Source: Candidatus Woesearchaeota archaeon
Lineage (GTDB): Archaea > Nanobdellota > Nanobdellia > SCGC-AAA011-G17 > ARS1403
Reading direction: 5' to 3'
NCBI GenBank assembly: GCA_016188065.1
Contig: JACPIN010000004.1
Span: forward strand, 1 to 53,236
Length of the DNA: 53,236 nt
Part shown: positions 19,819 to 20,790 of the stretch, in pieces
How positions within the stretch are numbered: the first letter of the stretch is position 1
Layout: every line of letters starts with the position of its first letter
Notes under the pieces: generated by a model
What the model saw: the letters and a program-made list of their open reading frames with translations, nothing else
The model's database searches: none
What the model was told of the DNA's origin: nothing
Program-made: the position numbers and the translations under genes

Positions 19819-20790
19819 TTGATGAATAAACTTCCTTTTGAAAAAGAATTTGGAACATTAGTCAAGAAAGAAGCTGAAGGCGAGTTTGGGAAAAGGCCTA
19901 ATGAAAGAAGCGTTGAGGAATTGCTTGATTTTGGAATAATAAATTTGAACAAGCCCCAAGGACCAACTTCACACCAAATTTCTGACTACGTAAAAAAAAT
20001 CCTAAAGGTAAAACGCGCAGGACATTCTGGGACCTTAGTGTATTAACAAGGAAATCCCAATGTAACTGGAGTTTTGCCGATTGCGCTAAACCGGGGAACA
20101 CGTATTCTTAAATTATTATTAAAATCTGGGAAGGAATATGTCTGCTTGATGCATTTGCATAATGATGTTTCAGAAGAGAAGATAAAAAAAGCCATGAAGA
20201 AATTTGTGGGAAAGATAACTCAAAAGCCTCCTGTGAGAAGCGCTGTGAAAAGAATTGAAAGAGAAAGAGAGATATATTATCTTGAGATACTTGAAATTGA
20301 GAATAAAGAAGTATTATTTAAAGTTGGGTGCGAGGCAGGCACTTACATCCGAACATTGTGTACAGCCATTGGAAGAGAACTTGGAACCGGGGCGCATATG
20401 GCTCAGCTTGTTAGAACTAAAGTAGGGAGGTTTAACGACGCTGACTGGATTTCTTTGCATGACTTGAAAGATGCTTATGAAGATTATAAAGAAGGTGATG
20501 AAAAGGAGATAAGAAAGATCATATTCCCTATAGAAACTGCTGTCGAATATTTTCCTAAGATTTGGGTGTTTGACAACTGCATTGATTCTTTATGCCATGG
20601 CGCTGACTTGAATGTTCCTGGAATCAGCAGATTAAATGAGGGGATTGAAAAAGATGACATTGTTGCTGTCATGACTTTGAAAAATGAATTAATCTGCGTC
20701 GGTAAATCTGAAATGGGCTCTAAAGACATAATGAGAAAAAACAAGGGGAAAGTCGTTACAGAAAAGAAAGTTTTTATCCGGTCTCTTTAG
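19819..20790 (+). CDS. cbf5: Cbf5-type tRNA/rRNA pseudouridine synthase, interrupted by a 15-nt intron
   Basis: Two frames that together form one Cbf5. Exon 1 (19819-20038) encodes residues 1-73 plus the first base of codon 74, including INLNKPQGPTSHQISDYVKK and AGHSGTL. Exon 2 (20054-20790) continues with PNVTGVLPIALNRGT, GKEYVCLMHLH, CEAGTYIRTLCTAIGRELG and a C-terminal PUA domain. Splicing out 20039-20053 creates GAT (Asp 74), the catalytic Asp of GTLDP, and a 318-aa protein of normal archaeal length. Unspliced, translation stops at TAA 20044-20046, before the catalytic residue. Cbf5 is the catalytic subunit of H/ACA RNPs and also modifies tRNA position 55. The 3' end overlaps the convergent HerA-like gene by 17 nt. 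Confidence 0.93.
20039..20053 (+). other. predicted archaeal BHB intron (15 nt) in cbf5
   Basis: Intron TGTATTAACAAGGAA. Outer helix TGGGA (20028-20032) with TCCCA (20055-20059); central 4-bp helix CCTT (20033-20036) with AAGG (20048-20051). 5' bulge AG^T (20037-20039), 3' bulge AA^A (20052-20054); inner GT/AC stem with ATTA loop. This is the bulge-helix-bulge topology of archaeal tRNA introns, with the exon-derived 4 nt in the central helix and the 3' bulge next to the outer helix. Cuts after the second base of each bulge give an exact in-frame join. Confidence 0.9.

Follow-up and report, generated by a model that had tools for sequence, protein, structure and literature searches.

How does Candidatus Woesearchaeota archaeon obtain a complete Cbf5, an enzyme that modifies RNA, from a gene whose reading frame closes after 74 codons? 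In the window (the whole 53,236-nucleotide stretch of DNA that was analysed), cbf5 lies at 19822-20790 on the forward strand; the frame from the ATG at 19822 ends at an in-frame TAA within 20039-20053, and the remainder of Cbf5 is encoded further downstream. Excising 20039-20053 (TGTATTAACAAGGAA, 15 nt) gives GGG ACC TTA G/AT CCC AAT and a product of 317 residues plus stop, in which the repaired motif reads GHSGTLDP and the codon of the catalytic Asp73 is rebuilt as GAT. The insert is in phase 1 and splits the Asp73 codon behind its first letter (G/intron/AT), and no other interval repairs this codon when removed. The initial annotation had given the same 15-nt repair and premature stop, which stand, with a restored protein of 318 aa, a figure that includes the stop codon, and an unspliced fragment of 75 aa, of which we count 74. 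The gene is divided as follows.

19822..20038, + strand: cbf5 exon 1, coding for residues 1-72 and ending with the G of the Asp73 codon
20039..20053, + strand: putative bulge-helix-bulge intron TGTATTAACAAGGAA, 15 nt, with an in-frame TAA; same codon and phase in at least 24 other species
20054..20790, + strand: cbf5 exon 2, from the second letter of the Asp73 codon through the TruB and PUA domains to the stop

The spliced product is matched by the Cbf5 equivalog model TIGR00425 (E 1e-116) and by solved archaeal Cbf5 structures (E 2e-104), and contains the domains DKCLD, TruB_N, TruB_C_2 and PUA. Against the intronless sister species G001, of the same genus, exon 2 has a dN of 0.15 and a near-saturated dS of 1.9; such purifying selection implies translation of, and selection on, the sequence that follows the stop. 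The gene is single: no second cbf5 was found in the source genome (881 kb, 91% complete). We infer from the sequence that the insert is a bulge-helix-bulge (BHB) intron spliced from the cbf5 pre-mRNA, with a probability of roughly 0.93.

The exon-intron boundaries can be drawn as a BHB motif composed of the following elements.

20028..20032, + strand: TGGGA in exon 1, 5' strand of the outer helix, pairing with 20055-20059 (pair probabilities 0.73-1.0)
20033..20036, + strand: CCTT in exon 1, 5' strand of the central 4-bp helix, pairing with 20048-20051
20037..20039, + strand: 5' bulge AG^T, read from the sequence, with the predicted cut at 20038/20039; the minimum-energy fold has a rival 1-nt bulge
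20048..20051, + strand: AAGG in the intron, 3' strand of the central helix, from pair probabilities and covariation
20052..20054, + strand: 3' bulge AA^A, read from the sequence, with the predicted cut at 20053/20054
20055..20059, + strand: TCCCA in exon 2, 3' strand of the outer helix, from pair probabilities and covariation

Every pair of TGGGA/TCCCA and CCTT/AAGG has a probability of 0.73-1.0 in the ensemble. At minimum energy, G20038 and T20039 pair with C20047 and A20046, which reduces the 5' bulge to A20037, and the inner helix of the 15-nt intron is only 2 bp long; the register with AG^T open as a 3-nt bulge is the alternative (GT/AC, 4-nt loop). The sequence thus offers two 3-nt bulges, a 4-bp helix and an exon-exon helix, with a competing 1-nt register on the 5' side, and cuts after nucleotide 2 of each bulge restore the product exactly for 20039-20053. 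The helices and bulges of the initial annotation are therefore present, with predicted cuts at the points of in-frame repair; its description of an “exact” endonuclease substrate is slightly overstated on the 5' side, where the minimum-energy fold has a 1-nt bulge. In this window, a BHB with 5+4 Watson-Crick pairs and an intron of 12-30 nt is found at about 8e-6 of the (position, length) pairs. The fold energy by itself is unremarkable (z -1.8), but a BHB at the sole repair interval and helix covariation across 15 species exceed chance. The 29-nt intron of a relative (G034) folds ideally, with 3-nt bulges, a 9-bp inner helix and a z of -4.2.

Do related archaea carry the same interruption? The comparison with related cbf5 genes had been proposed by the initial annotation. 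Within the class, at least 24 further species (12 from the same order) have an insert of 12-29 nt at the same phase-1 position of the same codon. The sample from the order comprised 103 species, 79 of them readable at the site (G082 and G049 were not read there), and inserts of 13-29 nt are found in 13 of the 79, the source species included: 13 nt in G074, 15 nt in the source (G000) and G093, 20 nt in G005, 21 nt in G002, G006, G060, G066, G071 and G072, 22 nt in G020 and G036, and 29 nt in G034. Beyond the order the numbers are minimum values, since they rest on the matches listed by a phylum-wide protein search and on a covariance-model search with strict filters; because the model also recognises genes without the intron (42-nt match, distinctly lower score), presence was called from the sequence. 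In the same class outside the order, G105 has 13 nt, G368 has 16 nt, and at least ten species of genus g79 (L126-L134, L140) have a 12-nt insert, always with an in-frame TGA and without an inner helix, which is shorter than the published size range of cbf5 introns; a congener, G110, has no intron. Carriers named in the databases are Nanoarchaeota archaeon isolate ARS1286 (L031) and archaeon isolate nzgw40 (L038), and the other matches of that database search are filed under Woesearchaeota, archaeon or Nanoarchaeia. Judged by these sequences, the intron is spread far more widely in archaea than has been reported.

In an alignment of 15 species, 99.3% of the pair cells are standard pairs, the central helix being 100% and the outer helix 98.7% paired. 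Doubly changed cells number 19, compared with 6.5 ± 2.4 in shuffles (0 of 500 reaching this value), and the covariation score is 0.459 compared with 0.227 ± 0.028 (matched by 0 of 500), with shuffles that ignore relatedness in both cases. The third base of the Thr codon and its partner in the intron occur as all four Watson-Crick types (CG, AU, UA, GC), and AG or TG precedes the cut in nearly all of the 15 species. The Gly codon is GGG in 14 of 15 intron-bearing genes vs. 3 of 66 intronless genes, and the Pro codon is CCC or CCT (CCY) in 15 of 15 vs. 26 of 66, both counts uncorrected for kinship. As far as the alignment can tell, the helix is maintained by compensatory changes between exon and intron, and splicing would in this way constrain the choice of codons.

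A broken reading frame in a fragmented source assembly could reflect an error of sequencing or assembly, or else a pseudogene in decay whose hairpin arose by chance. However, the inserts that independent genomes carry at this phosphate differ and show compensatory pairing, exon 2 evolves under purifying selection, and there is no other cbf5 in the genome; the relatives refute an error or pseudogene for practical purposes, and we give it next to no chance. Could the insert instead be retained in the mRNA and be passed by the ribosome, through bypass (programmed hopping) or readthrough of the stop? Some inserts are multiples of three (15, 21 and 12 nt), as would suit such a mechanism, but those of 13, 16, 20, 22 and 29 nt do not preserve the frame, the Asp codon would be lost on readthrough, and the conserved structure fits the endonuclease motif with its cut sites at the repair points. 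We consider retention very improbable and keep to a BHB intron that is spliced out.

The machinery for this is encoded in the source genome. There is one EndA gene (C7:33.4-33.9 kb, about 191 aa), in which the Tyr/His/Lys motifs are visible, and its closest counterparts are the Nanoarchaeum catalytic subunit and the homotetramer enzyme of M. jannaschii. Searches of all ORFs of the 881-kb assembly with Pfam and a profile of the relatives' EndA found no second subunit; at 91% completeness such a subunit could be absent from the assembly, though the relatives are nearly all single-copy (EndA is found in 92 of 99, in single copy in all but one of those 92). The species of g79 and G368 likewise have a single EndA gene, and G105 has two partial EndA pieces on different contigs. 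Gene number and size point to an EndA of the homotetramer type, and homotetramer enzymes are regarded as strict about the motif. The RtcB ligase is also encoded, so that both EndA and RtcB are at hand; its gene (G000:C1:53601-56354, L185) is a 975-aa open frame with an apparent intein (DIN/C...VSHN/C). In the same genome, a 13-nt intron is predicted to follow position 37 of tRNA-Thr(GGU) (G000:C24:10911-10997, minus strand); this candidate, read by eye, forms a minimal BHB without an inner helix. Minimal introns may therefore be normal substrates here.

For cbf5 we propose that the transcript folds such that the exon codons GGG ACC TT and CCC pair mutually and with the intron. The tRNA-splicing endonuclease would then cut each bulge behind its second nucleotide, freeing the 15 nt, RtcB would ligate the exons to form the GAT of the catalytic Asp73, and active Cbf5 would be made from spliced mRNA only.

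The distribution of the intron is patchy. A Cbf5 tree of 76 sequences contains 10 changes of intron state, at least 9 of which are forced by well-supported branches. G001 lacks the intron that its congener, the source species, carries; in genus g36 it is present in G066 and absent from G045 and G086. The likeness of the G066 intron to that of G060, in the same family, together with the intronless G045 and G086, suggests that precise loss is the likelier direction in g36. There has been repeated precise loss within the DPANN group, and possibly more than one gain as well. These many forced state changes make a data set for testing the gain and loss of archaeal introns.

Is the intron also a deliberate switch, with slow splicing limiting Cbf5, for example through Cbf5 feedback or competition from pre-tRNA? 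The unspliced mRNA would give only the 74-aa fragment, and, with the catalytic codon interrupted, splicing becomes an all-or-nothing step. The idea that splicing gates activity, also raised in the initial annotation, is not new, as negative regulation via cbf5 splicing has already been suggested for Crenarchaeota (PMC2738675). On the other hand, at least nine forced state changes and many intronless close relatives suggest a dispensable intron, and the GGG/CCC codons of Ser-Gly-Thr-Leu-Asp-Pro supply the outer helix free, which could alone explain the site. We regard such a switch, as an addition to the spliced BHB intron, as unlikely.

The Asp codon is not the only site in cbf5 where a BHB intron can be proposed. 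In G020 (L048, G020:C14:25550-26700) a second insert of 22 nt (ATAGATAAAAAATCTAAGGAAG) lies at GPT/SHQ, upstream of the Asp-codon intron. It folds as GTGG-TCCT-ACA-TAGAT-loop-ATCTA-AGGA-AGT-TCAC with 3-nt bulges, and canonical cuts restore GPTSHQVSD, which gives two putative introns in one archaeal mRNA and suggests that new positions can be occupied.

Other interruptions were noted in passing. The cbf5 of G004 (L049, G004:C4:27800-28900) has a frame break at residues 110-114, away from the Asp codon, which could be an error, a deletion or another insertion. Open frames for Cbf5 that reach 824-860 aa and have an interruption close to residue 180 occur in G052 (L052, 113-2599) and in G091, G319, G291, G390, G113 and G278, the latter six known from split matches only; the G052 insert, after AGTYIRKL, reads as an intein with a Cys start and an end in HNFLIETGFISSN before the next C. 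In the source genome, 881,203 bases were scanned for further mRNA BHB introns by frame-rescuing removals, and of the 480 candidates, mostly due to chance, 12 were inspected as fused proteins, none of them a convincing interrupted gene. Within the window, cbf5 is the only convincing mRNA case.

To our knowledge, hardly any protein genes of archaea are known to contain introns. The cbf5 intron has been taken as a crenarchaeal trait enabled by a relaxed, hetero-oligomeric endonuclease; an identical codon phase in at least 25 DPANN species with a single-gene endonuclease calls the link with hetero-oligomeric EndA into question. It is possible, at somewhat less than even odds, either that the Asp-codon intron is older than the split between DPANN and Crenarchaeota and was lost precisely many times, or that the Gly-Thr-Leu-Asp-Pro codons are a proto-splice site that captured introns independently in distant phyla without hetero-oligomeric EndA. 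Introns so short hold little signal on common descent. If ancient, this would be an archaeal protein-gene intron of extreme age. In many DPANN genomes cbf5 is probably mis-annotated as broken.

How does the DPANN intron compare with known systems? The crenarchaeal cbf5 intron was reportedly described by Watanabe in 2002. Yokobori 2009 (PMC2738675) places crenarchaeal introns of 16-44 bp, from Desulfurococcales and Sulfolobales, directly behind the first letter of the catalytic Asp codon, so that the active-site codon is not the new location for which the initial annotation took it. These introns are mostly unconventional BHBs tied to hetero-oligomeric EndA, were confirmed by cDNA in several species and were lost in some lineages (PMC2738675); a 2020 paper still names them as the only BHB introns so far reported in addition to those of tRNA and rRNA (PMC7714728). 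The DPANN introns share with them the gene, the Asp-codon position, a BHB at the boundary, predicted cuts between bulge nucleotides 2 and 3 and patchy loss, and differ in their length of 12-29 nt, a near-canonical 4-bp helix with 3-nt bulges and a single-gene EndA. The unusually small size claimed for the source intron holds just barely, 15 nt lying below a published range (16-44 bp) that is descriptive rather than defining. The claim of a first occurrence in DPANN appears to hold: a full-text literature search, with subscription journals mostly outside its coverage, found no report of cbf5 introns in DPANN or Woesearchaeota. As far as we could find, the DPANN occurrence, the sizes of 12-15 nt, the near-canonical motifs beside a single-gene EndA, the nine or more gains and losses and the second cbf5 intron in G020 are new.

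For the genome of an archaeal virus, introns of 12 bp have been put forward (Peng et al., cited in PMC2738675); these are likewise very short insertions in protein genes, of the same length as those of g79; as related there, they were inserted during infection, with neither demonstrated splicing nor a link to cbf5. The BHB site of HVO_1309 in Haloferax (PMC7714728) is, as proposed here for cbf5, an mRNA substrate of EndA outside Crenarchaeota, but lies in the 5' untranslated region, whereas the cbf5 intron is inside a codon. With the archaeal tRNA introns, reported down to 11 nt (PMC2738675), the DPANN introns share the motif and presumably the enzymes; the cbf5 substrate, in contrast, is an mRNA, in which the exon strands of the helix are codons.
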